From: Acidobacteriota bacterium
GTDB lineage: Bacteria; Acidobacteriota; JAAYUB01
NCBI GenBank assembly: GCA_016935015.1
Contig: JAFGRT010000030.1
Span: 1-53,801, forward strand
Length of the DNA: 53,801 nt
Direction of reading: 5' to 3'
Part shown: positions 13,263-38,094 of the stretch, one piece after another
How the letters are laid out: each line of letters starts with the position of its first letter
How positions within the stretch are numbered: the first letter of the stretch is position 1
Notes under the pieces: generated by a model
Seen by the model: only the letters and a program-made list of their open reading frames with translations
The model's database searches: none
Told to the model about the DNA's origin: nothing
Made by a program: the position numbers and the translations under genes

Positions 13263-14027
13263 ATGTTGCTGGCGGTGGATATCGGAAATACCGACATACA
13301 TTTCGGGATTTTTGATGAGAAGGGACTGCAGGTCGAGTGGCGCCTGCGGACGCGTCCGGAGCAAACCGCCGATGAATACGGTCTCGACTGTGTCAATGTG
13401 CTGCGGCATTTCGGCCTCAACAAGGATCAACTCTCCCGGGTGCTGATCGCCTCGGTGGTTCCTGTGCTGGACACCACCATCACCGCCATGTGCCGCAAAT
13501 ATATCGGCCATGAACCCGAATTTATCGACGCCACCCGGCAGCAGTTTCTTGCCATCGACTATGTACCGCCCACCGACGTGGGCGCCGACCGCGTGGCCAG
13601 CGCCGTGGCGGCGTATCTCCGCTTCGGCGCGCCCCTCATCATCATCGATTTCGGCACAGCCACCACCTTCGACGCGGTGGACCGGCACGGCGTCTACCTA
13701 GGCGGAGCCATCGTGCCCGGCGTGCTGCTGTCCGCAGAAACCCTCAGCCGGCACGCCGCCCGGCTGCCCGATGCCGCTGTGGCGAAACCGTCGCAGGTTA
13801 TTGGTCGGAATACGGTGGAAAGCGTCCAGTCCGGGCTCTACTACGGTAGTCTGCTGATGGTCGAGGGAATGGTGGCCCGGTTCAGGGAACAGCTGGGCCG
13901 GGACGCCAAAGTGGTGGTCACCGGTGCCTTGCTGGACGTCTTCCGTGACGACCTGACGGGGGTGACCGCCTACGAGCGGGATCTGACCCTGACAGGGTTG
14001 TACTATATACATAGTAAAAAAAGTTGA
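13263..14027 (+). CDS. coaX: Type III pantothenate kinase
   Basis: A 254-residue CoaX that phosphorylates pantothenate in the first step of coenzyme A synthesis, in the ASKHA fold. Visible motifs are LLAVDIGNTDIHFGIFD (phosphate 1 loop), PPTDVGADRVASAVAA (pantothenate/dimer site), LIIIDFGTATTFDAVD (phosphate 2 loop) and GGAIVPGVLLSAETL. Length is typical. The ATG at 13263 follows AAGGAGAC by about 6 bases. The last nine codons lie in an unusually AT-rich spot that contains the 16-bp palindrome at 14001-14016. It is followed by an unknown gene four bases away, an rRNA methyltransferase gene and comEC, all tightly packed. Confidence 0.94.
   Translation: MLLAVDIGNTDIHFGIFDEKGLQVEWRLRTRPEQTADEYGLDCVNVLRHFGLNKDQLSRVLIASVVPVLDTTITAMCRKYIGHEPEFIDATRQQFLAIDYVPPTDVGADRVASAVAAYLRFGAPLIIIDFGTATTFDAVDRHGVYLGGAIVPGVLLSAETLSRHAARLPDAAVAKPSQVIGRNTVESVQSGLYYGSLLMVEGMVARFREQLGRDAKVVVTGALLDVFRDDLTGVTAYERDLTLTGLYYIHSKKS
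14001..14016. repeat. 16-bp palindrome copy 1 (inside coaX 3' end)
   Basis: TACTAT-ATAC-ATAGTA is a perfect 6-bp inverted repeat with a 4-base centre, in an AT-rich island at the end of coaX. Three more copies follow at 15182, 16576 and 16986. Confidence 0.8.
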
Positions 14028-14031
14028 TGAC

Positions 14032-14760
14032 GTGACCCGATTGAACTACTTCAATTATTACACGGAGATTGAGGAATTCTTCATCCAGAAGCGGGGGAAA
14101 CACATCCTGCTCTCGCCCCTGGACTGGATGCTTATCGAAACCTGGCGGGAGATGGAGATCCCCCTGACGGTAGTATTGCGCGGCATCGATCGGGCGGTGG
14201 CGCTTTTTCAGGAAAAGGAGAGCCGCTACCGGTTCGTCAATTCCCTGTATTACTGCAATCAGGCGGTGCTGGAAGAGCAGGAAAAATACCTGCTGAGCAA
14301 AACCGGGGGCGCCGCCGGGGTGGGAGCCGGCGACGCCGAAAGCGAAGGCGCGGCGGTAGCGGATGACACGGCGGCCGTGCAGATGGAGGAGCATGTGCGC
14401 AGTTTCCGCCAGGCGCTGCTGGCCTTCGTGGAATCACAGCCGACGGAACGGGTCAGGGAGACAGCGGACCGTCTGGAGAAGCGGCTGGAGGAAATTCTGG
14501 CGGCTCACCAGTCCGGCTGTGATGCAGAAGGGTTAGAGCGTTATCTGATGATTCTCAACGATCTGCTGAATCCCTGCCTGGAGGAATGCCTGACGCCGGA
14601 GGAGAAGAAAGAATTGCTGCGCGAGTGCCGGGCGGAACTGCGGCATCATCGCCGGAACCTGCCACCGGAGATGTATGAACGAATATTGCGCAATCTCTAT
14701 CTGAAAAAGCTCAAAGAGCATTTCCGGATTCCAGACCTTTCACTGTTGAATATCCCATGA
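14032..14760 (+). CDS. Conserved-looking hypothetical protein between coaX and rlmD
   Basis: A 242-residue protein that I do not recognise. The N-terminal 80 residues look compact and folded (LNYFNYYTEIEEFFIQKRG, LSPLDWMLIETWREMEIPLTVVLRGIDRAV). Next comes a low-complexity Gly/Ala linker near residues 85-115, then a helical C-terminal half with many Glu, Arg and Leu. The middle (RETADRLEKRLEEILAAH) could form a coiled coil. Four cysteines do not form an obvious metal site. It starts at a GTG four bases after the coaX stop and overlaps the methyltransferase start by 4 bases (ATGA), so translation of the three genes is probably coupled. The neighbours suggest a housekeeping role, but no function can be named. 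Confidence 0.75.
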   Translation: MTRLNYFNYYTEIEEFFIQKRGKHILLSPLDWMLIETWREMEIPLTVVLRGIDRAVALFQEKESRYRFVNSLYYCNQAVLEEQEKYLLSKTGGAAGVGAGDAESEGAAVADDTAAVQMEEHVRSFRQALLAFVESQPTERVRETADRLEKRLEEILAAHQSGCDAEGLERYLMILNDLLNPCLEECLTPEEKKELLRECRAELRHHRRNLPPEMYERILRNLYLKKLKEHFRIPDLSLLNIP

Positions 14761-16016
14761 CGGTACGTGAAACCGCTGAAGTTACCATTGAGAAGCTGGT
14801 CCATCGGGGGGCAGGCCTGGGCCGCCTGCCGGACGGCAAGGCGGTTTTCGTGCCGTATTCGGTTCCCGGAGAGCGGCTGCGGGTGCACGTGACGGAAGAG
14901 CGCGCCTCGTTCGCCCGCGGCGTCATCGAGGAAATACTGACGTCGGCGCCGGGTCGGCGGGAACCGCCGTGTCCGTATTTCGGGGAGTGCGGCGGGTGTC
15001 AGCTGATGCATCTGGAGTATGCCCGGCAGTTGGAATGGAAGCAGAAGATCCTGGCCGAGATATGGCGCCATCAGCAGCCGGCGGATTGTGGCACCTCCCG
15101 GCACCGAGAGTTCGGGTACCGGCAGCGGATTCGGCTGCATGTACGTCCGGAGGCGGATCGGCTGGGATTCATGCACCAAAATACTAAAAGTATAGTAAAT
15201 ATTGAGGACTGCCTCTTATGTCACCCGGCCATCCGCGAAACATTTCCCTGGCTGCGCCGGCAACTGTTGCCGAAATTGCTGGAGCTGGCCCTGCCGGTGC
15301 GGGAGATCCTGCTGGCGGCGGGCGATGACCCGCCGGCCGCAGTCTGGCTGCAATCCTCCAGCCCGCTGGACGGCCGGCAGCTGGCGCGGTTGCGGCGGTG
15401 GAGCCCCTATCCGCTCAGCGGATCCGGTGCCGGCAAGGATGCGCCCCGGGTCCGGCTGGACATCGGTGGTGTTTGTTTCGAGGTAAGTCCGGATACGTTT
15501 TTCCAGGCGAACTCGGGCGCCGTTGCGGAATTGTGGCAACACCCCGCCCTGGAGGTGCCGCCGGAGAGCCGGGTACTGGAATTGTACGCCGGCCTCGGCC
15601 TGTTCACGCTGTTCCTGGCTCGACGGGTCCGCGAGGTTTGCGCCGTAGAGGGCAACCCTGAGGCCCGGCGACTGTTCGACCGGAATCTGGCCCTGAATCC
15701 GGCGGCCCATGTGACCTTCCACCAGCATAGTGTCGAACGCTGGCTGGAAGAATGGCGCGGTGATCGTCCCACAGTGGATACCCTGTTTCTGGACCCGCCG
15801 CGCACCGGGTTGAGCCGCCCGGTCCGTCAGCGGCTGCCGGAGCTTTCCTTCCGGCGCATTCTGTATCTGTCCTGCGATGCCACCACCCAACACCGGGACC
15901 TGCAGGCATGGCTGAATGGCGGGGAGTACGGGCTGAAGTCCCTCACGATGTTCGATTTCTTTCCCAATACCTTTCATTTTGAATGTCTGGCAAGGCTGTA
16001 TGAACACGGTTCCTGA
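14757..16016 (+). CDS. rlmD: RlmD/RumA-type 23S rRNA (uracil-C5) methyltransferase
   Basis: A 419-residue SAM-dependent RNA methyltransferase. An N-terminal TRAM domain (residues 1-60) is followed by a [4Fe-4S] site, C72-X5-C78-X2-C81 (CPYFGECGGC), with a fourth ligand in DCLLCHP. The catalytic domain has the SAM loop VLELYAGLGLFTLFLA, LDPPRTGLSRP, and the catalytic Cys373 in YLSCDATTQHRDL. It probably methylates U1939 or U747 of 23S rRNA (E. coli numbering); the exact target cannot be fixed. It overlaps the preceding gene by 4 bases and the comEC start by 17. One copy of the TACTAT-N4-ATAGTA palindrome lies at codons 142-147 in a locally AT-rich stretch. Confidence 0.9.
   Translation: MTVRETAEVTIEKLVHRGAGLGRLPDGKAVFVPYSVPGERLRVHVTEERASFARGVIEEILTSAPGRREPPCPYFGECGGCQLMHLEYARQLEWKQKILAEIWRHQQPADCGTSRHREFGYRQRIRLHVRPEADRLGFMHQNTKSIVNIEDCLLCHPAIRETFPWLRRQLLPKLLELALPVREILLAAGDDPPAAVWLQSSSPLDGRQLARLRRWSPYPLSGSGAGKDAPRVRLDIGGVCFEVSPDTFFQANSGAVAELWQHPALEVPPESRVLELYAGLGLFTLFLARRVREVCAVEGNPEARRLFDRNLALNPAAHVTFHQHSVERWLEEWRGDRPTVDTLFLDPPRTGLSRPVRQRLPELSFRRILYLSCDATTQHRDLQAWLNGGEYGLKSLTMFDFFPNTFHFECLARLYEHGS
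15182..15197. repeat. 16-bp palindrome copy 2 (inside rlmD)
   Basis: TACTAA-AAGT-ATAGTA has one mismatch in the 6-bp arms. It sits in an AT-rich island within a G+C-rich reading frame, where AAT ACT AAA AGT ATA GTA codons are used. Confidence 0.75.
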
Positions 16017-18669
16017 GCCGACCTCTGTCCTTTCCGTTCGGGCGGTGCCTATTTTCTGGCTGTTCCTGGTGTTCACGGGAGGGATTCTCGCCGGCGGCAG
16101 TCTGCCGGTGCTGTACCTGCCGGCCGCGGCTGCCGGACTGCCGGCCCTGCTGGTCATGGGGCTGATCTGCCGGCGCCGCGGCCAGAAACGGTCGGCGTTG
16201 CTTTGCGTCGGCCTGGCCGTAGGAGTGGCCGGCATGATCCTGGAAAAATGGGAGGTGAGTCGCTATTCGGCCGCCGTGAACACCCTTGCCCCTCTGCACG
16301 GAGTGATGGAACGGGGGGATGCGGTTCGTATCGAAGGGCGCACCATTGAGATCCCGTACCACGGTTACGAGCGCGAGGCCCTGCAGGCAAGGGTCAGGGT
16401 GGAAAATGTCTGGATCGGCGGCCGCCCGCAGCCATTGTCTTTCACCACGCTGCTGCGGGTGTATCAGCCCGCGCAGTTCACCTTCACCTGGAGCGAAGGG
16501 GATCGTATTCAGTTCCTGGCCCGTTTGACCCGGCCGCGCTGGCTGCGCAACCAGGGGCAGAATCAGGCGGCTATATACTATTGGAATAGTAATATTGTTT
16601 GCCTATGCGCCTGTAAAACCCCGCAGCTGGTCTCGGTGGTGGAAGATCACCCGCCCGGGCTCAGACACCGCTTGCGGGCGACGGTGGACAACGCCGTCGA
16701 GGGCGCGGTAAGCGAATCCGGCGCCCGGAAAGTGGTGCGGGCCCTGCTGCTGGGAATCAGTATGGATGATGCGACGCTGCGCAGTGCGTATGTCGATGCC
16801 GGACTGTACCATCTCCTGGTGATCAGCGGCTTGCACGTAACCCTGGTCATCGGTCTGGTCGGAGCCGTTCTGTGGTTGCTGCGACTGCCGCGAACAGCGG
16901 GGCTGGTGATTCTGTTCGTGTGTCTGGCAGGCTATGCCGAATTTGTCCAGCCCCGGATCTCCATCCTGCGGGCCGTCATTATTATTACTATAATTTTAGT
17001 ATCTAAAGGAATTGATCGCCCGGTCCATTTGCTTAATGTCACGGCCCTGGCCGCCTGGCTGCTGTTATTGTCCCAGCCCTGGTACGTGCATGATCCCGGC
17101 TTTCAGCTGACATTCGCAGCGGTGTTCGCTCTGGCCATCGTTTACCCGGTATGGCAGCATAGCGTGATCGCGCCACTGCACCGGGCGGCGGTGACGGTCT
17201 GCACCACGCAGGTGGATCTGGCTGCGGAGCCGGAACATGTGCGGGCGCGCACCATCCGGTTTACTCTGGAAAGGATCTGGTTTGAATGGTTTCCGCGCCG
17301 GAAGCGCCGGCGGGTACGGCTGGGCTATCTCCTGGGCCTGCGCCTGGCCGCAGCGGTTTTGGCGCCGCTCCTGGCGGGCGTGGCGGTTCTTGCCTTCACC
17401 GCACCCATCCTGGCACACATCCATGCCCCGCTGGCCCCGGCCAGCGTCATCCTGATGCTGCCGGCGCTGCTCATTCTGTGGCCGATACTGATCGTGGTGC
17501 TGTTGGCGATGCCGGCGACGCTGATCTGGGAAGCAGCGGCCGGCTGGCTGCTCCAGCTGGGCGGTGGACTGGCCGCGGCCCTCAACGAGCTGGTGCAGGC
17601 CGCGCCGCTGGCGCCGCGCTGGCTGTATGCCTGGCCCCCGGCGGTCGTCGGAGTGCACCTGGTGCTCCTGCTGTTGCTCGTCCGTTACGGACGCGGCCGA
17701 GCCTTGACGTTACTGGCCCTGATACTGGCCGGTCTGTGGTGCTGGATTACCCCCGTCCCTCAGTCGGAAGGCGCTGTCGGGCTGTCCATGCTGGATGTGG
17801 GGGAAGGGGAAGCCATCCTCATCCGTGGCCGGCGGGGGGAAAGTCTGCTGGTGGATACGGGCGGCTGGCCTGTTTTCGGGGACGAGGCATCAGTCGCCGG
17901 CAGTCGCGGTGACCTGTCCCGGCGTGTCATCATACCGGCACTGCTGAACCAGGGAGTAACGATCCTGGACGCTGTCGTCATCACCCATTTCGATTTCGAC
18001 CACTGCGGGTCGTTACCGGGCCTGATCCGCTCGTTCCCCATCCGCCGCGTCTACTGTTCGGCCAGTGACTGGCGGCGCCAGCCGCTGCTGGCACAGGAAC
18101 TGGCCCGCCAGTTGCAAACAGCGGCCATTCCGCTGATCCCGTTGTCGATGCCGGATCGAATCGACCTGCCGGGGGTGGATCTTGACATCCTGCACCCTGC
18201 CGGAATCACGGCCGCCGCCGAGGGCAACGCCAATTCACTGGTGATCCACGGCCGGTCCGGCGGGTGCTCGTTTCTACTGACCGGCGACATCGACGCCCGG
18301 ACGGAAGGCCTGCTGGCGGCGGCGAACCGACTCCAGCCGGTGGATCTGCTCAAATGCCCCCACCACGGGAGCCGCACCTCCTCGTCCGAGACGTTGCTGC
18401 AGACCACTCGCCCGGCCCTGGCCCTGATCTCCGCCGGACCGCCGTGGCGCTTCAGTCATCCTTCACCCGTGGTCGTGGACCGCCTGAACCGGTGGGGAGT
18501 GCGTTGGTGGTCCACTTACCGTGACGGGCAGATCAGCGTTCGCTTCCGGGACAACCGGCTGGAAGTGGAATGCCCCGTGCCGGATACCCCGCTGGACTTC
18601 CCGCCCCCTCCGCTGGTAATCCCTCGTACTTCGAACGCGTCGCCGCGTGAAATTTCATTCGCGAATTAA
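16000..18669 (+). CDS. comEC: ComEC/Rec2 DNA-uptake channel protein
   Basis: An 889-residue membrane protein of the ComEC family, which carries single-stranded DNA across the inner membrane during natural transformation. The N-terminal 190 residues carry membrane helices and an OB-like DUF4131 domain (RIEGRTIEIP, DRIQFLARLTRPRWLRN). A multi-helix competence domain follows (GLYHLLVISGLHVTLV; HDPGFQLTFAAVFALA). The C-terminal metallo-beta-lactamase domain (from about residue 595) has H663 in THFDFDHCG, FLLTGDID and LKCPHHGSRTS, so its metal site looks intact. The ATG at 16000 overlaps the methyltransferase stop; an ATG at 15979 is the alternative. Two copies of the 16-bp palindrome lie inside the gene. 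A ComEA-like gene follows. Confidence 0.92.
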   Translation: MNTVPEPTSVLSVRAVPIFWLFLVFTGGILAGGSLPVLYLPAAAAGLPALLVMGLICRRRGQKRSALLCVGLAVGVAGMILEKWEVSRYSAAVNTLAPLHGVMERGDAVRIEGRTIEIPYHGYEREALQARVRVENVWIGGRPQPLSFTTLLRVYQPAQFTFTWSEGDRIQFLARLTRPRWLRNQGQNQAAIYYWNSNIVCLCACKTPQLVSVVEDHPPGLRHRLRATVDNAVEGAVSESGARKVVRALLLGISMDDATLRSAYVDAGLYHLLVISGLHVTLVIGLVGAVLWLLRLPRTAGLVILFVCLAGYAEFVQPRISILRAVIIITIILVSKGIDRPVHLLNVTALAAWLLLLSQPWYVHDPGFQLTFAAVFALAIVYPVWQHSVIAPLHRAAVTVCTTQVDLAAEPEHVRARTIRFTLERIWFEWFPRRKRRRVRLGYLLGLRLAAAVLAPLLAGVAVLAFTAPILAHIHAPLAPASVILMLPALLILWPILIVVLLAMPATLIWEAAAGWLLQLGGGLAAALNELVQAAPLAPRWLYAWPPAVVGVHLVLLLLLVRYGRGRALTLLALILAGLWCWITPVPQSEGAVGLSMLDVGEGEAILIRGRRGESLLVDTGGWPVFGDEASVAGSRGDLSRRVIIPALLNQGVTILDAVVITHFDFDHCGSLPGLIRSFPIRRVYCSASDWRRQPLLAQELARQLQTAAIPLIPLSMPDRIDLPGVDLDILHPAGITAAAEGNANSLVIHGRSGGCSFLLTGDIDARTEGLLAAANRLQPVDLLKCPHHGSRTSSSETLLQTTRPALALISAGPPWRFSHPSPVVVDRLNRWGVRWWSTYRDGQISVRFRDNRLEVECPVPDTPLDFPPPPLVIPRTSNASPREISFAN
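16576..16591. repeat. 16-bp palindrome copy 3 (inside comEC)
   Basis: TACTAT-TGGA-ATAGTA is a perfect 6-bp inverted repeat. Flanking bases are AT-rich (CTATA before, ATATTG after) in an otherwise G+C-rich gene. Confidence 0.8.
16986..17001. repeat. 16-bp palindrome copy 4 (inside comEC)
   Basis: TACTAT-AATT-TTAGTA has one mismatch in the arms. The surrounding 35 bases (about 16975-17010) are almost entirely A and T. Confidence 0.75.
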
Positions 18670-35694: not shown

Positions 35695-38094
35695 TTGCAT
35701 AAATCCCTGATCACGTGGTTACGGCGATTGTCCGTTCTGATGAGCTGCACGGTGATTCTGGTGGTGGGCTACTATTTTTTCTCCCGCAACGGGTCCGTGC
35801 CGGATGAGGAGAGTCAACGCGAGCCCCTGACCAGTGATGTGACCAGCGCCACCCGCGAAATTGAGTACCTCCAGACCCGGGACGGAGCGCCTTTATTCCG
35901 GCTAAAGGCCAGTCGCAACATCGCCACGGTCCAGGGCGTCAACCATTTGCAGGATGTCGAAGTCGTCTACTATGGGCCCACCGGTGAGCGCCGCGACACC
36001 ATCCACGCGGACGAATGCTTTTATTCCGTTTCCGAAAACCAGGTTCGTTTCCAGGAAAATATCATCATTCGGCTGGCAGCCGGCTATCAGATCCGCACTC
36101 GCGAACTCCTCTACGAAAAAAGCACGGACATGGCCGTGAGTGATGGGCCGTTCACCTTCGCCAGTGACGGCATTACCGGTAGCGGGAACGGCTTCGCGTT
36201 GAACCTGAAGGACCGCGAGATGGCGATCCGTGAGGAAGTGAGGTTCCGGTACACGACTCCGGCCGGCCGGGGAAGGGCCGGTCTTGCCGGAGAGCAGTCT
36301 TTGGAACTGGAGGCCGGAGCCGCGTTGTTGCAGGAGAACGCAGGCGTCATCCACCTCGGACCGGAGGCGGTCATCCGCAGTGACCGTTCCCGGCTGTCGG
36401 CCCGCAACATGGATGTTTTTTTGACCGAGGAGCGCACGTTGAGACGGCTGCTCTGCCAGGGCGAGGCCCGGTACAATTCCCGTCAAGCGGAGCGGACCAT
36501 TTCATTGACGGGCGCGGAGCTGGAATTTCGGATGGCCGAGGCACCGGTGTATCCGGAAGAGATTGTTGCCCGAGATCAGGCCCGACTTCAGCTGGCTGAA
36601 GCGGAACTGGCGGCGCAACACATTGCCATCCGGCTGGATGCAGGAGCTGGAATCACGGCGGTCGAGGCCGACGAACGAGTCCTCTTTGCCTGGGTGGCCG
36701 CCCAGCGGACCATTGCCGGAGAATCCCTGGTCCTCCGTTTCAGTGACGGCGGCCTCATCGAAGAGGTGCGGGTCACTGGGAACGCCCAGCTGCGCCAGCA
36801 AGGTGAGCAGGCCACCTATCAGCTGAGCGCCGGGCAGCTTCTCTTTTTTCTGGAGGCGGATGCCACCGGCGCAACCCGCCTGGACCGGGTGCAGGCGCTG
36901 GAGAAATCGCTGCTAAATGCGGAGACAGGCGCTGGTGATGTTCTGTCGGGACGGGCGGATGCGCTGCAGATCGATTACGATGAAGCAGGAGCGTTCCCCA
37001 CGGCTGTCCTCGCCACCGGCAATTCCCGGTGGTCTTACATGCGGAAGGAACCCCGCGAGGATCTTTTCCTGGAATGCCGCCGGTTGGCCGTCAAGTTTGT
37101 CCCGGGGACCAGTGAACCCGAATCCTTCGAAGCCGAGGAAGACATATACATTCGTCGTTCCTGGTCCGACGACCAGTGGCTGGAGAGCTGGTGCCGGCGT
37201 ATGTCAGGCCGGAATGCCGGAACGGTCGCCGCGCCGGCCTGGCTGATTACCCAGCGCCAGGATGTTCGGTTCAGGTCCGCGCAGCTGGATGCCCAGGCCG
37301 AAAAAGCCACCCTGCAAAAAGATGTCATCACCCTGACCGAAAACCCGGTGATCCGGACACCGGAGGCGGAAACGCATGCCGAAACGTTCACCCTCGCCAT
37401 GCCGGCGAACGAGGTGACGGGTGAAGGCTCCATCCAGACAATCTTTCGTAAACAGAACAACGGCCATTCGCCACGATTGCTGCCGTGGGGCGGGGACACC
37501 GCAGGCAACGAGCCAGTTTATGTTCATGCCCGCCGGATGATCATGAAAAACAGTCAGGGGATGGCAGTCTATCGCGACAACTGCCGCATGGTGCAGGGGA
37601 ACAACACCTTGACCGCGGCGGAGTTCACTCTGGATCAGCGCCAGAATACGTTCCGGGCCACGGGAGGAGTGGTGGTGCTATATTCGCTGAAAACAAAGGA
37701 GCAAGGGCAACCGGAGAAACAGACTCCGGTGGAAATCCGCGCCCGGGACCTGACCTACACTGCCGCTGACCGGCAGATCGTTCTCGAAGGAACCGTGCGG
37801 GCCCGCACCAACCGGGGCGACCTGGTGGCGGAGCGGATGTGGGGCTTCTTCGAGCCGGAACAGGGCCTGCGCTCTCTCTATGCCGCCGTCGATATCCGCA
37901 TCACGCAGGCCACCCGGGAGGCGGAGGGTGACCGGGCCAAATTGCATCTCCCCCAGGGGGATATCATTCTGGTGGGCAATCCGGCCCGGGTCATCGATAA
38001 ACAGGAGGGACGGACGACGCAAGGGCTACGATTGACTTTGTTCGCCGAAAATGATAGAATTTTGATCGAAAATGAAGATAAACCACTGAAATAA
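35695..38094 (+). CDS. LptC/LptA-like lipopolysaccharide transport fusion protein
   Basis: A 799-residue protein with one N-terminal membrane anchor (residues 14-30, LMSCTVILVVGYYFF) and an otherwise periplasmic body. Residues 40-160 resemble LptC (ATREIEYLQTRDGAPLFRLKA; HADECFYSVSENQVRFQENI). The rest is OstA/LptA-type beta-jellyroll repeats, recognisable from patterns such as DLTYTAADRQIVLEGTVRARTNRGDLVAERM and YRDNCRMVQGNNTLTAAEFTL. Such a protein could form much of the bridge that carries LPS from the LptBFG complex to LptD. It starts with TTG at 35695 (GGAGGA 9 bases upstream). lptB follows after 18 bases; lptFG and lptD are not in the window. LptC proteins are usually about 190 residues, so this is a large fusion. 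Confidence 0.82.
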   Translation: MHKSLITWLRRLSVLMSCTVILVVGYYFFSRNGSVPDEESQREPLTSDVTSATREIEYLQTRDGAPLFRLKASRNIATVQGVNHLQDVEVVYYGPTGERRDTIHADECFYSVSENQVRFQENIIIRLAAGYQIRTRELLYEKSTDMAVSDGPFTFASDGITGSGNGFALNLKDREMAIREEVRFRYTTPAGRGRAGLAGEQSLELEAGAALLQENAGVIHLGPEAVIRSDRSRLSARNMDVFLTEERTLRRLLCQGEARYNSRQAERTISLTGAELEFRMAEAPVYPEEIVARDQARLQLAEAELAAQHIAIRLDAGAGITAVEADERVLFAWVAAQRTIAGESLVLRFSDGGLIEEVRVTGNAQLRQQGEQATYQLSAGQLLFFLEADATGATRLDRVQALEKSLLNAETGAGDVLSGRADALQIDYDEAGAFPTAVLATGNSRWSYMRKEPREDLFLECRRLAVKFVPGTSEPESFEAEEDIYIRRSWSDDQWLESWCRRMSGRNAGTVAAPAWLITQRQDVRFRSAQLDAQAEKATLQKDVITLTENPVIRTPEAETHAETFTLAMPANEVTGEGSIQTIFRKQNNGHSPRLLPWGGDTAGNEPVYVHARRMIMKNSQGMAVYRDNCRMVQGNNTLTAAEFTLDQRQNTFRATGGVVVLYSLKTKEQGQPEKQTPVEIRARDLTYTAADRQIVLEGTVRARTNRGDLVAERMWGFFEPEQGLRSLYAAVDIRITQATREAEGDRAKLHLPQGDIILVGNPARVIDKQEGRTTQGLRLTLFAENDRILIENEDKPLK

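Follow-up and report, generated by a model that had tools for sequence, protein, structure and literature searches.

The four copies of a 16-bp palindrome that lie within a single string of genes raise the question of what a DNA word of this kind is doing inside protein-coding sequence. The window, a 53,801-nucleotide stretch of DNA from an uncultured Acidobacteriota bacterium, carries them in three plus-strand genes, and the assignment of these genes as coaX, rlmD, and comEC was borne out by Pfam matches. The first, coaX (13263..14027), encodes a type III pantothenate kinase (PF03309; E value, 1.9e-63) and holds site 1 (TACTATATACATAGTA, 14001..14016) in its last codons at the 3' end. It is followed by a gene on the same strand (14032..14760) for a 242-aa protein with no Pfam family and no confident NCBIfam family. 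Site 2 (TACTAAAAGTATAGTA, 15182..15197) lies in the middle of the rlmD-like gene (14757..16016), which encodes a 23S rRNA (uracil-5-)methyltransferase with TRAM and tRNA_U5-meth_tr domains. Sites 3 (TACTATTGGAATAGTA, 16576..16591) and 4 (TACTATAATTTTAGTA, 16986..17001) both lie within comEC (15979..18669; Pfam Competence, Lactamase_B, and DUF4131), for which the coordinates are those of the open reading frame, with the start codon unsettled. The first-pass annotation had placed all four palindromes exactly. Sites 1 and 3 have perfect 6-bp arms, the other two carry one arm mismatch each, and all four fit TACTA-N6-TAGTA. The carrier genes are of unrelated function, every site is intragenic, and none is known to lie at a promoter. 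Elsewhere in the window, a 799-aa open reading frame (35695-38091) with an LptC match at its start and LptA/LptD_N matches near its end is an apparent fusion of LPS-transport proteins.

The cluster is real and strongly selected. In the whole genome of the bacterium (G000; 4,746,816 bases in 237 contigs, 96.8% complete), the only four copies of TACTA-N6-TAGTA are those inside 14001-17001, which extends to 4.75 Mb the earlier impression that there were no copies elsewhere; the reversed-pattern control occurs 11 times. When up to two mismatches to TACTAT-N4-ATAGTA were allowed, 17 off-locus matches were found in this genome versus 106 for the backwards control, so outside the locus the palindrome word is, if anything, scarce. 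Only one off-locus match has a single mismatch (C12:22534). Rarity by chance had also been claimed, and dinucleotide shuffles of the window gave an expectation of 0.06 copies, with a largest count of 1 in 100 shuffles. The genome-wide count is not near expectation; by our own arithmetic from that count, the probability that four independent sites share a 3-kb segment of this genome is about 1e-9. A literature search for the palindrome motif found no report of it.

The palindromes also bend the coding sequence around them. Synonymous resampling of the window genes, in which the coaX site was dropped by the open reading frame filter and three sites lay in the genes used, yielded a mean of 0.034 sites and a maximum of 2 in 2000 resamplings, compared with the 3 observed; per-site synonymous probabilities were 2.8e-4, 0.023, and 1.1e-4. 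The codons ATA, GTA, and ACT are 7-10% codons in the window genome. Each site sits in an AT island roughly 28-46 bp long (13998-14028, 15175-15206, 16572-16600, and 16974-17016 for sites 1 to 4, respectively), as had been noticed at first, and the other AT islands of the window lie mostly between genes.

Three further genomes of the same family, all from another genus, were recovered (G001 to G003). G001 and G002 each carry two near-identical sites, 126 bp apart and both within rlmD, which makes rlmD, rather than comEC, the conserved anchor of the sites among relatives. The RlmD proteins of these two genomes share only 45-46% identity with the RlmD of the window, and one of their sites falls at exactly the codons of the window site at 15182 (AAT ACT xxx xxx ATA GTA). 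At this shared site, all five comparable codons are identical across the three genomes, versus 65 of 169 (38%) elsewhere in rlmD; the synonymous divergence that would have spoken against a selected site is thus not seen here. At the position of the other site of G001 and G002, the window genome has no palindrome and encodes ILLAAGDD, compared with ITIIIVDN in the relatives. The window has the coaX and comEC sites instead, which indicates a turnover of individual sites inside the region. No sites are present in G003, but rlmD was not found in its assembly, so this genome is uninformative. In the approximately 20 kb around rlmD in G001 and in G002, the site islands are the only AT islands of this type. 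Such islands are rare inside genes, with 13 others within open reading frames in ~1.45 Mb of G002, none of which contains the motif.

No palindrome was found at the rlmD loci of other acidobacterial families, and the cluster is restricted to one Acidobacteriota family as far as could be searched. Other matches to TACTA-N6-TAGTA in the phylum, of which there are 35 copies in G025 and 41 in G030, are mostly of the form TACTAC-N4-GTAGTA or are scattered singles. In other Acidobacteriota, the TACTAC-N4-GTAGTA form appears either alone or as two closely spaced copies (L024:1501-2977, L025:1501-1538, and L026:1501-1540). It is extremely improbable that chance and codon bias in AT-rich patches produced the cluster. 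The shortness of the word and the fragmentation of the assembly speak for such an origin; however, the shuffles, the genome-wide count, and the codon-preserving null rule it out, and the same-codon site in another genus and the rarity of AT islands also stand against it.

Across the eight sites now available, ACTA is invariant in 16 of 16 half-sites, the first T is present in 15 of 16, and position 6 is A or T in all, giving the form TACTAW-N4-WTAGTA. The half-sites are spaced 11 bp apart, A/T makes up 88-94% of the four bases bordering each side, and the center is loose. The dyad symmetry, the invariant half-sites, the helical-turn spacing, the presence of two to four copies at one locus, and the conservation irrespective of gene function together suggest that a protein dimer binds these sites as double-stranded DNA, a reading that, from sequence, is very probably correct. 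A single dimeric, site-specific protein would recognize all four palindromes, each dimer reading two inverted TACTAw half-sites separated by one helical turn and flanked by AT-rich sequence, and within a single Acidobacteriota family selection would hold the sites in one small region of the chromosome. Of the interpretations offered by the first-pass annotation, the binding site for a dimeric nucleoid or segregation protein is thus the part that stands, with indirect support from the unique cluster, the dyad with its invariant half-sites, the conservation of codons between genera, and the turnover of sites; a DNA-uptake mark and an mRNA hairpin are the parts that do not. A regulatory mark near comEC is possible, but it is in rlmD that the window and its relatives have sites in common.

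An RNA-level signal, in which the transcripts would form hairpins or AU-rich stretches for processing, pausing, or RNA binding, is improbable. All of the sites are transcribed as part of coding sequence and could form A-U-rich stems of 5-7 bp. The predicted stems have little stability, however (-2.1 to -5.1 kcal/mol), and most do not outperform shuffled sequences, a clear advantage being seen for only one of the eight. Several sites carry an arm mismatch at positions 6 and 11, no Rfam match was obtained, and a stable, conserved stem was not found. Furthermore, the invariance of ACTA means that no compensatory change is seen in those pairs. A DNA-uptake sequence, expected in hundreds or more copies per genome, was rejected because there are four copies in the window genome and two to four per site-bearing genome, and internal promoters were rejected because sigma-70 patterns do not exceed the shuffle expectation.

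Short inverted repeats around a variable center are typical of recombinase and integrase targets, and the sites share this form. That they serve a site-specific recombinase, an integrase, or another enzyme of a mobile element is nonetheless very unlikely: up to four copies are kept within housekeeping genes, the genes of the window identified by Pfam include no transposase or integrase, and the RlmD alignment contains no indel at the rlmD site. The lack of indels likewise excludes the insertion of a short element there.

A more serious alternative is repression from within the coaX-rlmD-comEC string: a repressor acting as a dimer, perhaps one of the BlaI/MecI/CopY type (Penicillinase_R), would bind there to block transcription or loop it, so that comEC and comEA are tuned independently of the housekeeping genes upstream. 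We consider such intragenic operators possible but doubtful, and they rank second after the parS-like anchor discussed below. All of the sites lie within a single co-directional gene string. TACTAC-N4-GTAGTA has the same geometry as the sites, and in G006, another genome of the phylum, a BlaI-type gene has one copy ~20 bp upstream, so the palindrome geometry also fits the BlaI family. BlaI-type genes are present in all four family genomes, with one orphan type common to the four, and related 16-bp dyads occur at the BlaI promoters of G001 to G003 (for example, TATTAAGAAATTAGTT in G002). The sites thus resemble the operators of BlaI, MecI, and CopY (RNYKACANNTGTMRNY; PMC7253601) in being 16-bp dyads; however, the published BlaI/CopY core TACANNTGTA (PMC7253601) is absent from them, positions 4-13 reading TATATACATA, TAAAAGTATA, TATTGGAATA, and TATAATTTTA. 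Nor are they located at promoters, where operators of this family sit, most often at that of the repressor's own gene: in the window genome they lie within genes, 0.4-1.4 kb apart, and none of its three Penicillinase_R genes has TACTA-N6-TAGTA upstream. The carrier genes also differ between genomes, with both sites of G001 and G002 in rlmD.

The best-fitting reading, which we hold tentatively, is that the cluster is a parS-like anchor. It would act like a parS-type anchor or centromere and seed a nucleoprotein complex that could then be tethered, positioned, or used for loading other proteins; the sites would be intragenic because their position on the chromosome, and not their position relative to promoters, is what counts. 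Short, often intragenic palindromes that mark a chromosome region are also known from MatP-matS, Noc-NBS, and SlmA-SBS. Those systems are spread over hundreds of kilobases in tens of copies, whereas the palindromes described here number two to four within 0.1-3 kb. Closer in arrangement are the chromosomal parS sites, for example, the cluster of four in Pseudomonas aeruginosa (PMC4368675), which are likewise ~16-bp palindromes in few, clustered copies, mostly in coding sequences. Nine of the 10 parS sites of P. aeruginosa are predicted to lie within coding sequence (PMC4368675), and the number of chromosomal parS sites varies between species, from 1 to more than 20 (PMC7333895). In line with this, there are four sites in 3.0 kb of the window and two in the rlmD gene of both G001 and G002.

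The sites nevertheless differ from parS in several respects. They do not read TGTTTCACGTGAAACA or close to it, they have no adjoining parAB, they are AT-rich, and their center is loose. Canonical parS is bound by a ParB-CTPase that works with a ParA partner and lies close to the replication origin; the assemblies compared here are fragmented, at 180-250 contigs. Moreover, canonical parS and ParB occur separately within the same family. At up to two mismatches, two canonical parS sites were found in each of G002 and G003, elsewhere than the palindromes; in G002 they lie just upstream of parA and parB, and in G003 they lie on the same contig as these genes. The only ParB_N proteins above the cut-off in the family are the canonical ones, on the parS-bearing contigs of these two genomes. 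Since G002 has both canonical parS and the palindromes, the latter are not simply drifted parS and do not belong to a standard ParABS system, and an anchor made of them would be a system separate from the one already present in the family. In the window genome, neither canonical parS at up to two mismatches, which was therefore rejected as an explanation for the sites, nor a ParB_N protein above the cut-off was found; this may reflect an assembly gap or a real loss. That the palindromes form a family-specific centromere or anchor separate from canonical parS, read by a protein that has so far had no link to chromosome organization, for example, a divergent orphan ParB-like protein, is possible but on balance doubtful.

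Several proteins are candidates, and no more than candidates, for the reader of the sites: an orphan ParB-like protein, an orphan ParA, the BlaI-type repressors, and a ParA operon. The divergent orphan ParB-like protein (C184; L227:4701-5675) is 324 aa long, is encoded directly behind trpS with no parA neighbor, and matches PF02195 (E value, 3.7e-4), TIGR00180 (E value, 2e-6), and ParB structures (E value, 0.002). A protein of this type, with its neighbors trpS and flhA, is absent from the ~36% of G002 bases examined. The orphan ParA is found in all four family genomes (G000, C143, L100:6256-7047; G001, C152:14193; G002, C26:48705; G003, C1:45948), with no partner gene adjoining in the genomes looked at. 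The 242-aa protein encoded between coaX and rlmD, although a possible reader, was set aside. Its homologues adjoin rlmD in G001 and G002 and also in L107, which has no sites, and its predicted all-helical model has no PDB match at an E value of ≤0.001.

The ParA operon lies on contig C12 (C12:22684-23761; L061:8685-9762), behind rsmF, and consists of parA followed by a gene for a 106-aa putative ribbon-helix-helix protein. If it supplied the reader, the small protein would bind both its own promoter and the rlmD cluster in a partition system resembling type Ib. Type Ib centromeres, such as those bound by the ribbon-helix-helix proteins ParG and omega, are usually arrays upstream of the par genes; their short half-sites and ParA partner recall the arrangement proposed here. 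TTCTATA repeats occur in the promoter region of the C12 operon, together with a close approximation of the palindrome: the sole off-locus one-mismatch match, TAATATTTCTATAGTA, lies upstream of parA, with a two-mismatch match 48 bp beyond it, and the pattern of helices in the 106-aa protein is compatible, at low confidence, with a ribbon-helix-helix fold. However, chance alone would supply about one match of this kind (our own estimate from the two-mismatch count), and this match overlaps a TATAAT -10 box. A homologue of the small protein was not found in G001 or G002, which carry the sites; the ParA proteins of these genomes are other paralogues, and no parA lies behind rsmF in G002. The only operon of type Ib character seen here was not found in the site-bearing relatives, and a weak match in the phylum (G283) looks spurious. 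The operon was rejected as the reader, and this explanation of the sites is improbable.

Collectively, the palindrome appears to be a DNA word that has been kept within housekeeping genes across two genera at a cost in codon choice and probably in some amino acids, a pattern that suggests a role belonging to the chromosome itself. A parS-like anchor beside canonical parS would, if it proves correct, give this poorly known phylum a second system of chromosomal sites; if the sites are instead an intragenic operator cluster, they would represent an unusual control of competence genes. The 16-mer provides a direct bait for finding the protein that reads it.
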